A stretch of 44,860 nucleotides of DNA, taken from assembly GCA_913057985.1 (NCBI GenBank), contig CAJXPL010000020.1, forward strand, positions 1 to 44,860, read 5' to 3'. Below are positions 9,687 to 36,176 of the stretch, in pieces. The notes under the pieces were generated by a model. The model searched no databases. It was not told the origin of the DNA and saw nothing but the letters and a program-made list of their open reading frames with translations. The position numbers were made by a program, and so were the translations under genes. The stretch is from an uncultured Synechococcus sp. Lineage in GTDB: Bacteria; Cyanobacteriota; Cyanobacteriia; PCC-6307; Cyanobiaceae. How positions within the stretch are numbered: position 1 is the stretch's first letter; each line of letters opens with the position of its first letter.

Positions 9687-11717
9687 TTGAACAATTCAAT
9701 CCAACCCGGAGACACCGTCGCGGTTGTTCTCAAGGGTTCTCCTCTCTTCGGCCGTCTTCTGTCCATCAAGGGCAGCAAGGCGGTTCTTTCTTTTGGTGGT
9801 CAACGTCGTGACCAGGGCCTGCCCCTGCGCGATCTGATTGCCATCGATCCCGAGCATCTGTTCGATGGCAGTGAACTACCTGCCCCTGAGCAGGTGCAGG
9901 ACAGCGCTCCATCAGCGCGGGCCGTTGTGGAGGCCTGGCAGCTGTTGGAAACGGATCAACCGGGGGGATTGGCTCGGCTGAGCCTCTGCGAGCTGGGCGA
10001 GTTGGTATTGACCCCGCTCAACCTCGCTGGTCTGGCAGCGCTGTGGGCCTGGCTGAATGGAAACCAACAGTTGTTCCGCTGGCGTCGTGACCGTTTGATC
10101 CAGCCACTCTCCCGCGAAGAGAGGGCCAGCCTGCGGCGCCAACGCCGAGCTGAGCGGCAGGCGCATCAGCATGAACAACGACAGCTCGCGTTGCTTCGGG
10201 CTGAGCGAGCCCTCAGCGACGATGAACGCCTGGAGCTGGACCCGGTTTGGGACGAGCGCTTCAGCCACTGGATTCAGTTGCTGAAAGACAATCCCGCTGC
10301 GGTGGGTTCCGACCTGGATCTCCAGCAGTGGTCGGCAGCGTTGTCGATTGGATCAGATGCCGCCGATCTTCGGCAGTGGTTGATCGTGCGTGGGTTGCTC
10401 GATCCCAATGAGCCCATTGGCCTGAGGGGCAGCGTCTGGTCCCGCTGTTTTCCCTCTGATCTGGTGGAGGAAGCGAATCGTCTTGTTGCTCTTTCGAATG
10501 AAGAGCGACCTGGGGATGAGCAACGCATCGACCTCACTCACCTGGCCACCTACAGCCTGGACGATGCGGGCACTCGAGAAATTGATGACGCGCTCTCGCT
10601 GGAGCGTCGTGATGGCGTCGATTGGATCTGGATCCACATCGCTGATCCCAGCCGTCTGATCGACATTGACTCCCCCCTTGATCAGGAAGCCAGACGTCGA
10701 GCCACCAGTTTGTATCTGGCGGAGGGTGTAATGCCCATGCTGCCTCTGGAGCTGGCGGCCGGTCCCCTCAGTCTTCGGGCTGGACAGCGCTGTGCAGCCC
10801 TCAGTGTGGCCGTTCGCCTCGATGAGGATGGTGCTGTGGCGGAGCAACGGGTTGCGCGCAGCTGGATCCGACCCCGCTATGGCCTCACCTACACCGATGG
10901 TGATGAGCTGATCGAGTTGGCACCCCCAGGGGATGAAGCCCTCTCGGATCTCTCAGGACTCCTGATGTTGCGCATGCGCTGGCGCCGTTCCAAAGGAGCC
11001 GTGATGTTTGACCGGCCTGAAGGACGCTTCCGCCGCAGCGATGGAGCCTTGGCGCTGCAGGTGATTGACCTTTCACCCTCCCGCCTGATGGTGAGTGAAG
11101 CGATGCTGCTGATGGGAGCTGTTGTGGCCGGCTTTGGTCAAGAGCACAGCCTGCCGTTGCCCTTCCGCAGTCAGCCTGCGGCGGAGCTGCCCTCCAGCGA
11201 TGAACTCGATCGAATCCCCGAGGGACCAGCCCGTGATGCGGCGATCAAGCGCTGCTTGAGCCGAGGCGTGCAGGGCACGCGAGCCATGCCCCATTTCAGC
11301 CTCGGGCTTGAGGCCTATGTGCAGGCAACCTCACCGATCCGACGCTACGCCGATCTCGTCGCCCACCGGCAGATCATTGCCCAGCTCTCGGCGCTTGCAC
11401 CGATGGATGAAGAGCGTCTGCGGGAAGTGATCGATGACCTCGATGATCCATTGCGCCAATCCATTCAGATCAGCCGTGAGGATCAGCGCCACTGGCAGCA
11501 GGTGTGGTTCGCCGAGCATCAGAACACCGTTTGGTCGGCCGTGTTCCTGCGCTGGCTGCGCCCGCAGGATCGCTTGGCCCTGGTTCATGTGAGCGAGCTG
11601 GCTATGGATCTGGTCGGTTGTGTGTCTGCAGCAGACCCTGCTCCTGGTGATGCTCTTGAACTCAGGGTGGGGCGTGCTGACCCGGTACGCGGTGAGCTGC
11701 AGCTTCAGTTGGCTTGA
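9687..11717 (+). CDS. RNase II/R family 3'-5' exoribonuclease
   Basis: The 676-residue protein starts at a TTG ten bases after rpsR. It has an N-terminal OB-like domain (PGDTVAVVLKGSPLFGRLLSIKG), a long helical region, then an RNB catalytic domain: YSLDDAGTREIDDALSL near residue 290 aligns with the catalytic acidic cluster of RNase II, with three of four aspartates kept and the second position a glutamate. IHIADPSRLI, LAEGVMPMLP and TSPIRRYADLVAHRQI (near 550) are further RNB signatures. The C-terminus resembles a short S1/OB fold. It should degrade single-stranded RNA processively from the 3' end. Unlike the RNB-like protein at 32746-35082, its active centre looks largely intact. It overlaps the converging oxidoreductase by 13 bp. 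Confidence 0.9.
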   Translation: MNNSIQPGDTVAVVLKGSPLFGRLLSIKGSKAVLSFGGQRRDQGLPLRDLIAIDPEHLFDGSELPAPEQVQDSAPSARAVVEAWQLLETDQPGGLARLSLCELGELVLTPLNLAGLAALWAWLNGNQQLFRWRRDRLIQPLSREERASLRRQRRAERQAHQHEQRQLALLRAERALSDDERLELDPVWDERFSHWIQLLKDNPAAVGSDLDLQQWSAALSIGSDAADLRQWLIVRGLLDPNEPIGLRGSVWSRCFPSDLVEEANRLVALSNEERPGDEQRIDLTHLATYSLDDAGTREIDDALSLERRDGVDWIWIHIADPSRLIDIDSPLDQEARRRATSLYLAEGVMPMLPLELAAGPLSLRAGQRCAALSVAVRLDEDGAVAEQRVARSWIRPRYGLTYTDGDELIELAPPGDEALSDLSGLLMLRMRWRRSKGAVMFDRPEGRFRRSDGALALQVIDLSPSRLMVSEAMLLMGAVVAGFGQEHSLPLPFRSQPAAELPSSDELDRIPEGPARDAAIKRCLSRGVQGTRAMPHFSLGLEAYVQATSPIRRYADLVAHRQIIAQLSALAPMDEERLREVIDDLDDPLRQSIQISREDQRHWQQVWFAEHQNTVWSAVFLRWLRPQDRLALVHVSELAMDLVGCVSAADPAPGDALELRVGRADPVRGELQLQLA

Positions 11718-31628: not shown

Positions 31629-32003
31629 ATGAGCCGAGAGACGCCGCAATGGTCCTGCATCAAACACTGTGGAGCCTGTTGCCGACTCACTCCGGAGGAA
31701 CGGGCTGATGCCCTGGCGGCCTTGAACGAAGAGCAACAACGCACCTATCTGGCCATGGTTGGCCCTGACGGCTGGTGCATCCACTACGACACGGGCAGTC
31801 AGCGCTGCACGATTTATGAGGAGCGACCTGATTTCTGTCGTGTCAGTGGTCTGGGCCGTCTTTTTGACGTTCCCGATGATCAGTTCGATGCCTTCGCCAT
31901 CACCTGTTGCCAACAACAGATCCGCAGCACCTATGGCGGCCGCAGTGGCGTGATGCGTAGGTTCAAGCGCGCTCAGACCGCGGGAGGTTCTGTTGACGAG
32001 TGA
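31629..32003 (+). CDS. YkgJ-family cysteine-cluster protein
   Basis: The 124-residue protein begins with CIKHCGACCRL and carries further cysteines at 50, 60, 70 and a CC pair at 93-94. With C10, C14, C17 and C18 this is the CxxxCxxCC...C...C...C layout of the YkgJ/UPF0153 family, likely binding zinc or an Fe-S cluster. No enzymatic role is established. It is divergent from psb30 and overlaps the next gene by 11 bp, so it likely shares an operon with the UPF0016 pair; a link to metal handling is inference. Confidence 0.85.
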   Translation: MSRETPQWSCIKHCGACCRLTPEERADALAALNEEQQRTYLAMVGPDGWCIHYDTGSQRCTIYEERPDFCRVSGLGRLFDVPDDQFDAFAITCCQQQIRSTYGGRSGVMRRFKRAQTAGGSVDE

Positions 32004-32325
32004 GCAAACAAGCCCTGAGTCGCGCAGCTTTGCTGCCGTGCTGTTCAGCACCTTCACCACAGTGTTTGTGGCTGAACTGGGCGACAAAACCCAGTTGGCA
32101 ACGCTGTTGCTCTCGGCCCAGTCCGGCTCTCCTGTTCTGGTGTTCATCGGTGCCGCGCTGGCGTTGATTTCATCCAGCCTTGTGGGCGTTCTCGTCGGTC
32201 AATGGTTGGCCAAAACCCTTCCGCCTGAGCGTCTTGAACTGATGGCTGGGGTGCTGATGGTGGCGCTCGGCATCTGGCTCGGTCTTCAGGCCGCCAGCTC
32301 CCTTTGGCTCAATGCAGCGAGCTGA
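31993..32325 (+). CDS. UPF0016 (TMEM165/GDT1) half-transporter, first of a pair
   Basis: The 110-residue protein starts at a TTG with a strong GGGAGG five bases upstream. It has one copy of the UPF0016 motif (ELGDKT at 28-33) and three membrane segments. The eukaryotic TMEM165/GDT1 and cyanobacterial Mnx have two such motifs in one chain, so this is half-size and should pair with the next gene product. These proteins move Mn2+ (and Ca2+) across membranes. From memory, similar paired half-size proteins in cyanobacteria act as a plasma-membrane manganese exporter. It overlaps the YkgJ-like gene by 11 bp. Confidence 0.9.
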   Translation: MTSEQTSPESRSFAAVLFSTFTTVFVAELGDKTQLATLLLSAQSGSPVLVFIGAALALISSSLVGVLVGQWLAKTLPPERLELMAGVLMVALGIWLGLQAASSLWLNAAS

Positions 32326-32327
32326 CG

Positions 32328-32645
32328 ATGGATTTTCCCCTTCTGATCTCCACGTTCTTGACCGTGTTCCTGGCCGAACTCGGTGACAAGACCCAACTCG
32401 CCACCGTTGCCATCAGTGGCACGTCCAATCGCCCCCTGGCCGTGTTTCTCGGCTCATCATCGGCGTTGGTTCTGGCCAGTTTGCTGGGGGCCTTCGCCGG
32501 TGGTTCCGTTGCCACCGTGATTCCCAGCGATCTGCTTCAACTGCTGGCTTCCGTTGGTTTCCTCGTGATCGGTGGCCGCTTGCTGGTTCCTCTCGTCCGT
32601 GATGGTGAAGCCAACTCGGACGGGGATCAAACTTCTGAGTCCTAA
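32328..32645 (+). CDS. UPF0016 half-transporter, second of a pair
   Basis: The 105-residue protein (ATG 32328, two bases after the preceding stop) carries the second ELGDKT motif (17-22: AELGDKTQLATV) and three membrane segments. Its sequence differs clearly from its neighbour's, so the two are likely a heterodimer rather than a recent duplicate. Together they would rebuild the two-motif exporter. A polar tail (DGEANSDGDQTSES) ends the chain. A 100-bp gap separates it from the RNB-like gene. Confidence 0.9.
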   Translation: MDFPLLISTFLTVFLAELGDKTQLATVAISGTSNRPLAVFLGSSSALVLASLLGAFAGGSVATVIPSDLLQLLASVGFLVIGGRLLVPLVRDGEANSDGDQTSES

Positions 32646-32745: not shown

Positions 32746-35082
32746 ATGAAATTTACGGTTGCCGATCTGCTGGATCAGCTCTCAACGGAGCACTCCTCTG
32801 AGCCCGACCAACTGGCCAAGATCCTCAAGCTCAGCAACAAGACAGATAAAGCGGCGCTTGAGCTTGCCGTTTCATCACTGATGAAAATCGGTGTGATCGA
32901 AAAGACCAGTGAGGGTGGTCTCACACGGCCCCAGGAGAGTGATCTGATTGATGCTCGCCTGCGTTGCAGCAGCAAAGGCTTCTGCTTCGCCATTCGCGAT
33001 GACGGCGGCGAGGACATCTACATCCGTGACCATCAGCTGAACCACGCCTGGAATGGCGATCGTGTGCTGGTGCGGGTGACGCGGGAGGGCGGACGCCGCC
33101 GCTCTCCTGAAGGAGGTGTGCAATGCATCCTGGAACGGGCCACGCAATCTCTCCTGGCTCAGGTGGAGCAGCAGAGCGACCAGCTGCTCGCCACCCCCTT
33201 GGACGACAGAGTGCTTGCCGGCATTGAGCTGCCAGCAGAGGATTCCAAGCATCTGCCCGGTGATGAGGTCTCCAGCGTTGTCGAGGTGCGCATCGATCGC
33301 TACCCCGTGGCTCAGCATCCTGCGGCCGGCCATGTCGTGCGATCTCTCCCGCTCAATGGCGGACCAGCAGCCGACCGGGACCTGCTGCTGACCAAGGCTG
33401 GTCTTCAGGACCGTCCAGTGGCACCCAGAAGCTCAGGCAAAACCCCTGCGTCCAAGGGCCGGGTCGATCTCACCGCACAACCGTCGCTGCTGCTCAAAGG
33501 ATGGAGTCAGGACGATGCACCGGGGTTGCCTGCCGTGCACGTTGAAGCGAGGGACGGCGGTTGTCGCCTCTGGGTCCACGCGCCCAGCGTGGGCGAGCGG
33601 ATCGGTCTGGGCAACAGCCTCGATGCCTGCCTGCGGGACCGCGGTGAAGCCCTTTGCCTCGGTGAAGTCTGGCAACCTCTTCTAACTCCGGCCCTCCACA
33701 AGGCCACCAGCTTCTCGGCCGGATCCGAGGCTGATGCCATCAGCGTTCGGCTCGACGTCTCTGCCAACGGTGTGGTGAGCGACTGGGAGTTCATGCTCAG
33801 CTCGGTGCGCCCCGTCGCCGAGGTGAGCGCCGATCAGTTGATCGCCCTGGCGGAACGCAAACCCAAGGCGCGCAGCGTCCCGACCGCTCTCAAGCCGATC
33901 AAAGACCAGCTCGGTCAGTTGGAGACCCTCCGCTTCTGCAGCACGCTGTTGTTGGAGCAGGAGCGTGCCAACGGGGTTGTGCAACTCGATCTCTGCCCTC
34001 CGCAGCTGGAATCCCTTGGTGACCTGTGCAGCGCAGATCCCTCCGGGTTACGGCATCGCTGGGTTGATGCGTTCAACCCGGTCGACCCCCATGCGTTCCT
34101 TCAGCCTCTGTTGAGGGCCGCCGACCGTGCATGGACAGCACAACGTCTCGAGCTCCAATTGCCGGGCATCACCATCGAGGCGGATGAACCCGATGGCAGC
34201 GTGCTCACCGATGTGGCGAAAACAGCCATTGCCCTGGATCTTCCCCTTGAACTGGATGACGACGGCTGTCCATCAGCTTCGGAACTGATTCAGGTGTTCA
34301 AAGACAGCACGCAACGCCGGGTGCTGGAACAACAGCTCAGTCACGCCCTCCCACCTCTCAACCTTGTGGCATCCACAGAGGTCCCCCCTGCGGCAGCGGA
34401 TTCCGATGGGGACGAGGTTGCTGCGTCAAGCCAGAACACCTCACTGACCCCATGGACGTGTGCCACCCAGCACTACGCCCACCTGGTGAACCAACAGGTG
34501 ATCGTTGCGCTGCTGACCGATGCCAAGGATCGTCCAACCGTGCGTCACAAGACGCGTCTGAAGCTTGGCCTCAAGGGTGCCGGTGCTGATCTCACATGGC
34601 CCCTGTTCACCGCATCCCAGGACGAGAAGTTGAACGGCTTGGTGAATGAGCGCACCGTTCAGCGGCTCAACACGCGCCGGCGTCAGGTGTTGGAACTGGA
34701 AAAGGATCTGCTGTCGATGATCCAGGCCCGTTCAGCCCAACCCTTGATCGGCGAACAGGTGGAAGGGCGCATCAGTGGTGTGCAGAGCTATGGCTTTTTC
34801 GTGGAAGTTGGTGAAAGTCGCGTTGAAGGGCTGGTGCATGTGAGCTCCCTCAACGATGACTGGTACGAATACAGATCACGCCAGAATCGTTTGGTCGGGC
34901 GCAAGAACCGTCAGACCTATCAACTCGGCGACGCCGTACAGGTGCGCGTGATCAATGTGGATGTTCTGCGCAACCAGATCGACCTTGAGGTCATCAGCCA
35001 GGGTTCCAATGGCTCCACGGAACCTGAATCCTCAGCTCCTGAATCCTCGGAGCCGCTGCCCGTTGCCCTCAGCGAGCGCTGA
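32746..35082 (+). CDS. RNase R-like (RNB/S1) protein with degenerate catalytic centre, Zam-like
   Basis: The 778-residue protein has the RNase R layout: a winged-helix N-terminus (residues 1-60), a cold-shock/OB domain (LIDARLRCSSKGFCFAIRDDGG...DRVLVRV, ~65-110), a central RNB-like region and a canonical C-terminal S1 domain (~666-755, GFFVEVGESRVEGLVHVSSL). The RNB signatures are damaged. Where active enzymes have D-x5-D-x-D-D, this protein reads DDAPGLPAVHVE (near 256), and the conserved SPIRRYADL block reads ATQHYAHLV (near 573). It probably binds RNA without cutting it. It resembles the cyanobacterial Zam protein in its start (MKFTVADLL). ubiX begins right at its stop. The functional RNB enzyme at 9687 is separate. 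Confidence 0.85.
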   Translation: MKFTVADLLDQLSTEHSSEPDQLAKILKLSNKTDKAALELAVSSLMKIGVIEKTSEGGLTRPQESDLIDARLRCSSKGFCFAIRDDGGEDIYIRDHQLNHAWNGDRVLVRVTREGGRRRSPEGGVQCILERATQSLLAQVEQQSDQLLATPLDDRVLAGIELPAEDSKHLPGDEVSSVVEVRIDRYPVAQHPAAGHVVRSLPLNGGPAADRDLLLTKAGLQDRPVAPRSSGKTPASKGRVDLTAQPSLLLKGWSQDDAPGLPAVHVEARDGGCRLWVHAPSVGERIGLGNSLDACLRDRGEALCLGEVWQPLLTPALHKATSFSAGSEADAISVRLDVSANGVVSDWEFMLSSVRPVAEVSADQLIALAERKPKARSVPTALKPIKDQLGQLETLRFCSTLLLEQERANGVVQLDLCPPQLESLGDLCSADPSGLRHRWVDAFNPVDPHAFLQPLLRAADRAWTAQRLELQLPGITIEADEPDGSVLTDVAKTAIALDLPLELDDDGCPSASELIQVFKDSTQRRVLEQQLSHALPPLNLVASTEVPPAAADSDGDEVAASSQNTSLTPWTCATQHYAHLVNQQVIVALLTDAKDRPTVRHKTRLKLGLKGAGADLTWPLFTASQDEKLNGLVNERTVQRLNTRRRQVLELEKDLLSMIQARSAQPLIGEQVEGRISGVQSYGFFVEVGESRVEGLVHVSSLNDDWYEYRSRQNRLVGRKNRQTYQLGDAVQVRVINVDVLRNQIDLEVISQGSNGSTEPESSAPESSEPLPVALSER

Positions 35083-35085
35083 GTG

Positions 35086-35694
35086 ATGCATCCCTACGTT
35101 CTGGCAGTCACCGGTGCTTCCGCTCAACCCCTGGCCGAGCGTGCCCTACAGCTGCTGCTGCAGCGCGGGCGCTCGGTGCATCTCGTGCTCAGCCATGGTG
35201 CCCATGAGGTGTTTCGTGCGGAACAGGGCCTGACGATCCCTGTTGATCCGCTGAAACAACGTGCGTTCTGGCGAGAGAGGCTGTCGGTAGAGAGTGGCGA
35301 GCTCACCTGTCATCGCTGGAATGATCAGGCCGCCTGCATTGCCAGTGGCAGCTACAGAACCCGGGCGATGGTCATCGTTCCCTGCAGCATGGGAACCGTC
35401 GGGCGGATCCATGCCGGTATCGCCGCAGATCTGATCGAACGTTGTGCAGATGTGCATCTCAAGGAGCGTCGGCCCCTGGTGATTGCTCCCCGGGAGATGC
35501 CTTTCAACCTGATTCACCTCCGCAACCTCACCGGCCTCGCTGAAGCTGGAGCCACCATTGCCGCTCCCATTCCAGCCTGGTATACCCGGCCCGATTCCTT
35601 GGAGGAGATGGTGGACTTTCTGGTGGTGCGCCTGTTCGACGGCCTGGAGGAGGACCTTGCACCCCTGAAGCGCTGGCAGGGCCCCCTGGAATGA
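35086..35694 (+). CDS. ubiX: flavin prenyltransferase UbiX
   Basis: The product of 202 residues begins MHPYVLAVTGASAQPLAERAL, the FMN-binding start of UbiX/Pad1. It includes IVPCSMGTVGRIHAGIAADLIERCADVHLKERRPLVIAPREMPFN, the conserved core that binds dimethylallyl phosphate and FMN, and the PIPAWYTRPDSLEEMVDF C-terminal motif. It makes prenylated FMN, the cofactor of UbiD-type decarboxylases, used in plastoquinone synthesis among others. GTG 35083 also fits the start. It immediately follows the RNB-like gene stop and overlaps the next gene by ATGA (35691-35694), so it is probably co-transcribed with both. Confidence 0.94.
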   Translation: MHPYVLAVTGASAQPLAERALQLLLQRGRSVHLVLSHGAHEVFRAEQGLTIPVDPLKQRAFWRERLSVESGELTCHRWNDQAACIASGSYRTRAMVIVPCSMGTVGRIHAGIAADLIERCADVHLKERRPLVIAPREMPFNLIHLRNLTGLAEAGATIAAPIPAWYTRPDSLEEMVDFLVVRLFDGLEEDLAPLKRWQGPLE

Positions 35695-36176
35695 GCATGT
35701 TTCAGCGGCTGCTGCTGATTCCCTGCCTGGCGCCACTGATGGCGTTGCTGGTTCTTTCGGCCACGAATGTCGGAGACAAGACCCGGATCCGTCTGCTGGT
35801 TTGGACAACACCTCCGCTCCCCGTTGGGGCGTGGACAGCACTGGCTGGCGTTGGTGGTGCGGCCGGAGCCGCTGTCGCAGCGGTTTTGGTCTCCCCAGTG
35901 GAGCGTCCTCTGAGTCGCCAGAGGCGTTCCCCTGTTCAACCGGAGTTTGAGGAGAGGGGTTACACCGCCTACGAACCGACACCCAGATCCAGCACAAACC
36001 CAGGCCCAGAACGAGATGTGAGAGAACCAGCTCCAACCGTGTCTGTGGCCTACCGCGTGATTCAACGCCCTTCGTCAGTCCCCCCGCCGTCAGACGCTTC
36101 ATCAGGCGCTTCAGCCGTGGGCTCTCCTTCTCAGGATCTCAGTGATTGGGGAGATGATCCGGAGGCGAACTGGTAA
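35691..36176 (+). CDS. small membrane protein with proline-rich tail, function unknown
   Basis: The 161-residue product has two membrane segments near the N-terminus (LLLIPCLAPLMALLVLSATN and VGAWTALAGVGGAAGAAVAAVLVS) joined by a short loop (VGDKTRIRLLVWTTPPL), and a long basic and Pro/Ser-rich tail of about 95 residues ending QDLSDWGDDPEANW. The tail is probably cytosolic and disordered. The ATGA overlap with ubiX supports co-expression. I recognise it only as a conserved cyanobacterial protein and assign no function. Confidence 0.8.
   Translation: MSMFQRLLLIPCLAPLMALLVLSATNVGDKTRIRLLVWTTPPLPVGAWTALAGVGGAAGAAVAAVLVSPVERPLSRQRRSPVQPEFEERGYTAYEPTPRSSTNPGPERDVREPAPTVSVAYRVIQRPSSVPPPSDASSGASAVGSPSQDLSDWGDDPEANW

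Follow-up and report, generated by a model that had tools for sequence, protein, structure and literature searches.

The window analysed here, i.e. the whole stretch of 44,860 nucleotides, carries an open reading frame of 778 residues that starts with ATG and begins MKFTVADLLDQL, which is also the consensus start of 51 rows. This frame matches the Pfam families OB_RNB, RNB and S1 at 67.4, 106 and 53 bits, and the NCBIfam model of RNase R scores it at 187 bits, the cut-off being 598. It has the hallmark of Zam, two cysteines of the cold-shock domain CSD1 placed six residues apart (C74 and C80), each of which is a cysteine in 85/85 picocyanobacterial and 57/58 other Zams. We regard it, with a probability of about 0.9, as the picocyanobacterial orthologue of Zam, devoid of the canonical nuclease centre and under purifying selection. 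Since the rows compared included no named Zam record of PCC 6803 or PCC 7002, the name rests on these features and on PMC9145284. The coordinates of the gene, of its parts and of two other genes of the window are given in Table 1.

Table 1. Positions of zam, its domains and key residues, and of ubiX and rnb, in the window.
Feature	Positions	Strand	Evidence
zam CDS, RNase R-like pseudonuclease	32746..35082	+	ORF of 778 aa, Pfam, tree
Helix-turn-helix region, residues 1-66, variable	32746..32943	+	three model helices; mean entropy 1.65 bits
CSD1, residues 67-131, most constrained part	32944..33138	+	OB_RNB 67.4 bits; dN/dS 0.016
C74, redox pair residue 1 (C73 of PCC 7002)	32965..32967	+	conservation; role from PMC9145284
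C80, redox pair residue 2 (C79 of PCC 7002)	32983..32985	+	conservation; role from PMC9145284
C127, third CSD1 cysteine, only in picocyanobacterial rows	33124..33126	+	alignment
CSD2 region, residues 132-238	33139..33459	+	model; dN/dS 0.073
RNB region, residues 239-591, catalytically degenerate	33460..34518	+	Pfam RNB 106 bits
Former acidic loop, residues 251-263, KGWSQDDAPGLPA replacing D-x5-D-x-D-D	33496..33534	+	alignments
C304, replacing catalytic-cavity Tyr253	33655..33657	+	alignment
Former SPIRRY loop, residues 569-577 (PWTCATQHY); Q575 replaces Arg500	34450..34476	+	alignments
S1 domain, residues 661-752	34726..35001	+	Pfam S1 53 bits; dN/dS 0.031
ubiX-type flavin prenyltransferase gene, conserved next gene	35083..35694	+	NCBIfam; downstream in 72/72 loci
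rnb, other RNB protein (comparison): D292, E298, D300, D301, R552	9687..11717	+	Pfam 227.5 bits, alignment, motif scan

The rows that we call picocyanobacterial number 85: the window, five from genomes of the window's family, and 79 from named relatives, these last drawn from the best 80 of 153 qualifying stretches. Most of these relatives are titled Synechococcus, Prochlorococcus or Cyanobium, and a few Aphanothece, Vulcanococcus, Microcystis elabens or just 'cyanobacterium'; two of the rows are fragments (L083, L084). The 58 other Zams represent one protein per genome of the same class in a draw from the phylum.

In PMC9145284 the Zam proteins (named for resistance to acetazolamide; sll1910 of Synechocystis, A1543 of PCC 7002) make up a clade of cyanobacterial RNB-family members whose active site is extremely degenerate, and the authors suggest that all of them lack nuclease activity but could bind RNA. 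They also report that the CSD1 cysteines of PCC 7002, C73 and C79, are redox-active and required in vivo, and that deletion of zam leads to less phycocyanin synthesis and an altered PSI:PSII ratio, phenotypes that come from PCC 6803 and PCC 7002. The window Zam has the same domain order, degenerate RNB centre and CSD1 cysteine pair. Zam is a pan-cyanobacterial RNB pseudonuclease with the architecture of RNase R, and its catalytic loss has been in print since 2022 (PMC9145284). What we add is the graded nature of this loss, a set of lineage-specific cysteines and a sharper conflict over Alr1240 of Anabaena. Neither the gradation nor the cysteines of the pocket turned up in the literature searched, a scope outside which lie most subscription papers and preprints.

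Active RNase R and RNase II have in common four Mg-binding Asp or Glu and a catalytic Arg, a set that the window Zam does not have. The residues that it aligns to the four aspartates of RNase II, to Tyr253, to Y313 (presumably also a position with a role in the centre) and to Arg500 are K, P, L, P, C, A and Q. PMC3293843 sets out what the four aspartates, Tyr253 and Arg500 do in RNase II, and there the single change D209N abolishes activity. In the gapped family alignment Asp is found at none of the four acid columns in the 85 picocyanobacterial rows, and the D209 position, where 78/85 have Leu, is never acidic. When the loop is instead placed without gaps, K251, D257, P259 and G260 fall on the four acid positions of the window protein; the D207 position is then acidic in 63/85 rows (Asp, as at 257, in 31/85), and the D209 position is Pro in 83/85, Val in 2/85 and again acidic in none. 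The R500 position is Leu in 70 rows and Arg in 0/84, one further row having no letters there. Hence the two losses that the initial annotation had read from the DNA, that of the aspartate cluster of the RNB region and that of the SPIRRYADL arginines (ATQHYAHLV here), are both borne out: D209 and D210 are gone in 85/85 rows, and R500 is never Arg in the 84 that can be read. The same annotation had asked whether the acidic cluster lies elsewhere in the chain. Neither the strict pattern D-x5-D-x-D-D, nor the relaxed [DE]x4-6[DE]x[DE][DE], nor SPxRR occurs anywhere in the window Zam, which rules out an acidic cluster at another site for both acidic patterns. In the controls the strict motif was recovered at D201 in E. 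coli RNase II and at D272 in RNase R, and the window Rnb gave a relaxed cluster at D292 and SPIRR at 549; the relaxed pattern also matches by chance in both E. coli proteins.

Zam is predicted to retain the fold of RNase R (CSD1, CSD2, RNB and S1) in spite of having lost its chemistry. An AlphaFold2 model of Zam, built from a 51-row alignment, has a pLDDT of 85.2 and a pTM of 0.84; most blocks of 10 residues in RNB reach at least 90, and the segment 547-563, which leads up to the former Arg loop, stays below 50. Against solved structures the model gives Z 35.4 with B. subtilis RNase R (8cdu_C; 605 residues aligned, rmsd 4.5), 32.9 with E. coli RNase R (5xgu_B) and 28.5 with yeast Ssd1 (7am1_B). 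Zam thus shares with the RNase R proteins of E. coli, B. subtilis and Mycoplasma genitalium the HTH-CSD1-CSD2-RNB-S1 order and the fold (Z 32.9 to 35.4), but unlike them it has neither the Mg-binding acids nor the catalytic Arg. Ssd1, a pseudonuclease of the RNase II/Dis3L2 family, belongs to the same superfamily by fold match only. It too has lost catalysis and conserved its cold-shock domains, the centre being intact in other members of its family (PMC8097288). Yet it descends from fungal Dis3L2, and the available text of PMC8097288 mentions no redox pair.

Selection on zam is strong and unevenly spread. Relative to 10 congeners dN/dS is 0.095 overall, with 0.016 in CSD1, 0.073 in the CSD2 region, 0.111 and 0.148 in RNB (residues 239-400 and 401-600, respectively) and 0.031 in S1, values that pool pairs all sharing the window and are hence non-independent. 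PMC9145284 describes a conservation pattern that matches this profile. Mean column entropy follows it as well, from 0.35 bits in CSD1, where 20 of 65 columns are invariant in the 85 rows, through 0.73 in S1 to 1.65 both in RNB and in the N-terminal winged-helix region. The view that the winged helix, cold-shock and S1 domains are all well kept must accordingly be narrowed to CSD1 and S1, the winged helix being as variable as RNB. In the five genomes for which both genes were compared, Rnb has a dN/dS of 0.083 in RNB, 0.165 before it and 0.115 after it, and Zam 0.125 in RNB, 0.012 in CSD1 and 0.030 in S1. The constraint is therefore reversed between the paralogues: Rnb is tightest in RNB, whereas Zam is tightest in CSD1 and S1. 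Among family genomes of at least 90% completeness, 264/271 have a strong Zam match (E of 3.8e-79 or lower), including genomes of 1.4-1.7 Mb, and the other seven (90-96% complete) have only matches of 1.3e-4 to 9.3e-4. Together with the overall dN/dS, this upholds the earlier opinion that zam is not a decayed gene.

The genome has exactly two RNB matches, Zam and Rnb, and the second enzyme that had been pointed out at 9687 does have a near-intact centre, with Glu at the D207 position as in 10/26 other non-Zam RNB proteins. Cyanobacterial Rnb (Synechocystis sll1290) and Zam are members of the same family living in the same genome. Unlike Zam, Rnb has an intact centre, forms a separate clade and has RNB as its most constrained part, and the Synechocystis enzyme is an active exonuclease (PMC3293843). 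In a quick tree one branch (SH-aLRT 100) parts 82 Zam rows from the enzymes of E. coli and from the remaining RNB rows; this tree puts the window Zam with marine Synechococcus, and gives the picocyanobacterial rows a long stem of 1.74 changes per column. It included the window with 23 of its 84 picocyanobacterial relatives and 9 of the 26 non-Zam RNB rows, and long branches meet in it; the family's Rnb is represented by a relative, L171, the window's own Rnb having no row. Every one of the 64 listed genomes of the window's class in the phylum draw matches Zam, and each also has two or more RNB matches or a split one. The Zam query matched other classes once, in the S1 part only, with 81 genomes giving no match; for the last 61 unmatched genomes of the Zam search and the last 55 of the RNB search, the assignment to other classes was inferred from listing order. 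Since Zam and Rnb form separate clades and all 64 listed genomes show this pattern, the pair is old. A recent duplication of the two genes is thus spoken against by the tree, in which L171 stands for the family's Rnb, and so is the suggestion that the second RNB gene had freed Zam to diverge. The initial annotation was therefore right that a gene still under maintenance has lost its catalytic centre, its RNA-binding role is a candidate one, and its account of what allowed the loss is not supported as worded.

Some further observations concern the RNB family at large. An RNB match is found in 71/146 genomes of the phylum draw, 64 of the window's class and seven from elsewhere in the phylum. No match is found in the 75 left over, and most sister-class genomes seem to lack RNase II/R. 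Three Prochlorococcus-like genomes of 1.7-1.9 Mb (G137, G114, G107) encode an Rnb (L168, L169, L170) in frames of only 398-433 residues, most other Rnb rows having about 670-710, and these short proteins still carry D-E-D-D and SPxRRY. Eight loci of other cyanobacteria (L146-L153) encode a further RNB protein of 471-777 residues with the four Asp and the Arg intact, which has no phmmer match to the window Zam at E 1e-5. The number of RNase II-family members in Synechocystis is given as one in the abstract of PMC3293843 and as two (sll1290, sll1910) in PMC10989914.

Read from the alignments, the catalytic decay of Zam is graded among cyanobacteria and complete at D209, D210 and R500 in picocyanobacteria. 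None of the 58 other Zams has all four Asp together, but four of them (L009, L019, L115, L140) keep D209-D210 with R500, and L009 and L140 keep D201 in addition. D209 as such is kept in 8/58, Glu-Asn stands at 209-210 in 33/58, and R500 is kept in 29/58. Compared with E. coli RNase R, the four most complete rows have 3-5 extra residues between the first and the paired acid positions. In both trees these rows adjoin the root of Zam, the root being weak. The second of these trees, from which the picocyanobacteria, L145, 11 near-duplicates and the active-site columns were removed, leaves 42 others on one side (SH-aLRT 94); the great length of its E. coli branch leaves the root, and with it the direction of change, unsure. 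Picocyanobacterial rows, where D209, D210 and R500 are all gone, differ in this from Zam as depicted in PMC9145284. The gradation amounts to a direct test set, made of Zams with D209-D210-R500, Zams with E209-N210-R500 and Zams with nothing left.

In picocyanobacteria the emptied pocket seems to have been rebuilt around newly conserved Trp and Cys. W253 is found in 84/85 and P259 in 83/85 of their rows. At the Tyr253 position, C304 is Cys in 80/85 picocyanobacterial rows and in 0/58 others, of which 36 keep the Tyr. W570 is present in 82/85 rows vs 1/58 others, and it is followed by a Cys at 571 or 572 in 79/85 (the window has T571 and C572); other Zams have Cys at 571 in four rows and at 572 in one. 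Outside the pocket, the C127 position of CSD1 is Cys in 85/85, and in the others Leu (50/58) or Val (8/58), never Cys. The available text of PMC9145284 leaves C127, C304, Cys571/572, W253 and W570, all conserved in picocyanobacterial rows, out of its discussion. A second redox or metal site in this pocket is possible. One might go further and speculate that in marine and freshwater picocyanobacteria C304 and Cys571 or Cys572 behind the Trp form a new thiol site in the pocket, next to the gain of C127 in CSD1, and that this site acts as another redox switch or binds a metal or ligand, reporting redox state to the RNA-binding domains, and that some other cyanobacteria still have a working or half-working Zam nuclease; we find this larger picture rather doubtful. 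C304 is missing from five sequences and Cys571/572 from six, including the fragment L084, which lacks that part, and the two sets share only L008, a row whose genome, of 1.7 Mb, falls with Prochlorococcus, and which has neither. This overlap of a single row speaks against C304 and Cys571/572 being a coupled site.

What might a protein without a centre do? We propose that Zam would be a non-cutting partner of RNA and/or RNase E, held to them by CSD1 and S1. A reversible disulfide in CSD1 would follow the photosynthetic redox state and switch this holding on and off, and CSD1 so switched would tune mRNA turnover. We would give such a redox-gated mechanism roughly even odds. Its RNase E version is proposed in PMC9145284, and binding to RNase E has been reported for the Anabaena protein, not for picocyanobacteria (PMC10989914). 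Zam is a candidate link from the photosynthetic redox state to gene expression in cyanobacteria.

The Anabaena protein also raises the possibility that Zam still cuts, through a non-canonical centre made of Glu-Asn in place of Asp-Asp, of other acids or of another part of the chain. According to the review PMC10989914, Alr1240 of Anabaena PCC 7120 is an RNase II-like exonuclease that degrades unstructured RNA, binds RNase E and enhances its cleavage, and PMC9145284 identifies this same protein as Zam. The literature is thus in sharper contradiction than it appears, the protein reported as an active exonuclease being the one that PMC9145284 assigns to the clade called inactive. Gene order bears on the identification. 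The genes alr1240, alr1241 and alr1242 form one transcription unit (PMC10287535), the product of the last having 221 residues (PMC2823733), and in two large f7 genomes (perhaps Nostocaceae) zam is followed by ubiX and then by a frame of 232-233 residues, which is consistent with Alr1240 being Zam and does not prove it. All 18 f7 rows have Glu-Asn at 209-210 and keep R500. As Alr1240 is both reported active and called Zam, it may be that just part of the lineages have an inactive protein. Should the activity be Alr1240's own, cutting is still within reach of a half-changed centre and the Zam family is not uniformly dead; if it is not, a contaminant carried it. A surviving nuclease would also find material in the four other Zams with D209-D210 and R500, the 33 with E209-N210 and the 29 with R500. 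But for the window and its relatives, D209N is enough to kill RNase II (PMC3293843), the D209 position is never acidic and the R500 position never Arg in their 85 rows, and purified PCC 7002 Zam, though aggregating, showed neither nuclease nor RNA-binding activity (data not shown in PMC9145284). We therefore think a divergent nuclease unlikely.

Zam could alternatively be a ribosome-associated factor that docks on the 30S subunit like RNase R without cutting. The top-ranked solved fold, in a tie with further RNase R entries, is in fact that of RNase R bound to a 30S intermediate. RNase R contacts the 30S mainly via its N-terminal domains (PMC10901742), and in Zam the tightest constraint falls on CSD1. 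Yet the 30S anchor according to PMC10901742 is the helix-turn-helix, whose removal from RNase R lowers the recovery of truncated 16S rRNA, and in picocyanobacterial Zam this region ranks with the most variable ones, which makes such docking improbable. Finally, a gene decaying without function might be read from the long picocyanobacterial stem, the catalytic loss and the in-range stop codons of a few relatives (G107, G399, L087), but it is almost certainly wrong given purifying selection, strong matches in 264/271 genomes and a downstream neighbour constant in 72/72 loci.

Against these alternatives we keep the redox-gated partner of RNA and/or RNase E as our proposal, and the surroundings of the gene may be viewed with it in mind. 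All picocyanobacterial loci with room to tell have ubiX downstream of zam (72/72) and gdt1 upstream (73/73), the names GDT1, UbiX and DUF2996 coming from profile matches. Three further neighbours we take to be acsF (magnesium-protoporphyrin cyclase), recJ and tldD, and acsF lies within 4 kb of zam in 54/62 picocyanobacterial loci. A chlorophyll gene nearby fits the photosynthesis context, proximity not being function. Elsewhere zam-ubiX is found in 9/29 genomes (11/31 rows, two genomes appearing twice), some of the flanks being only about 1.4 kb. Rfam at gathering thresholds finds one tRNA in the whole window and nothing near zam. After ubiX, at 35691-36176, comes a frame of 161 residues that has no Pfam match above cut-off and no phmmer match at E 1e-6 to the frame of 232-233 residues that occupies the same place in the two f7 genomes. 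Upstream of zam, at 31993-32645, lie two adjacent GDT1-type transporter genes of a single domain each.
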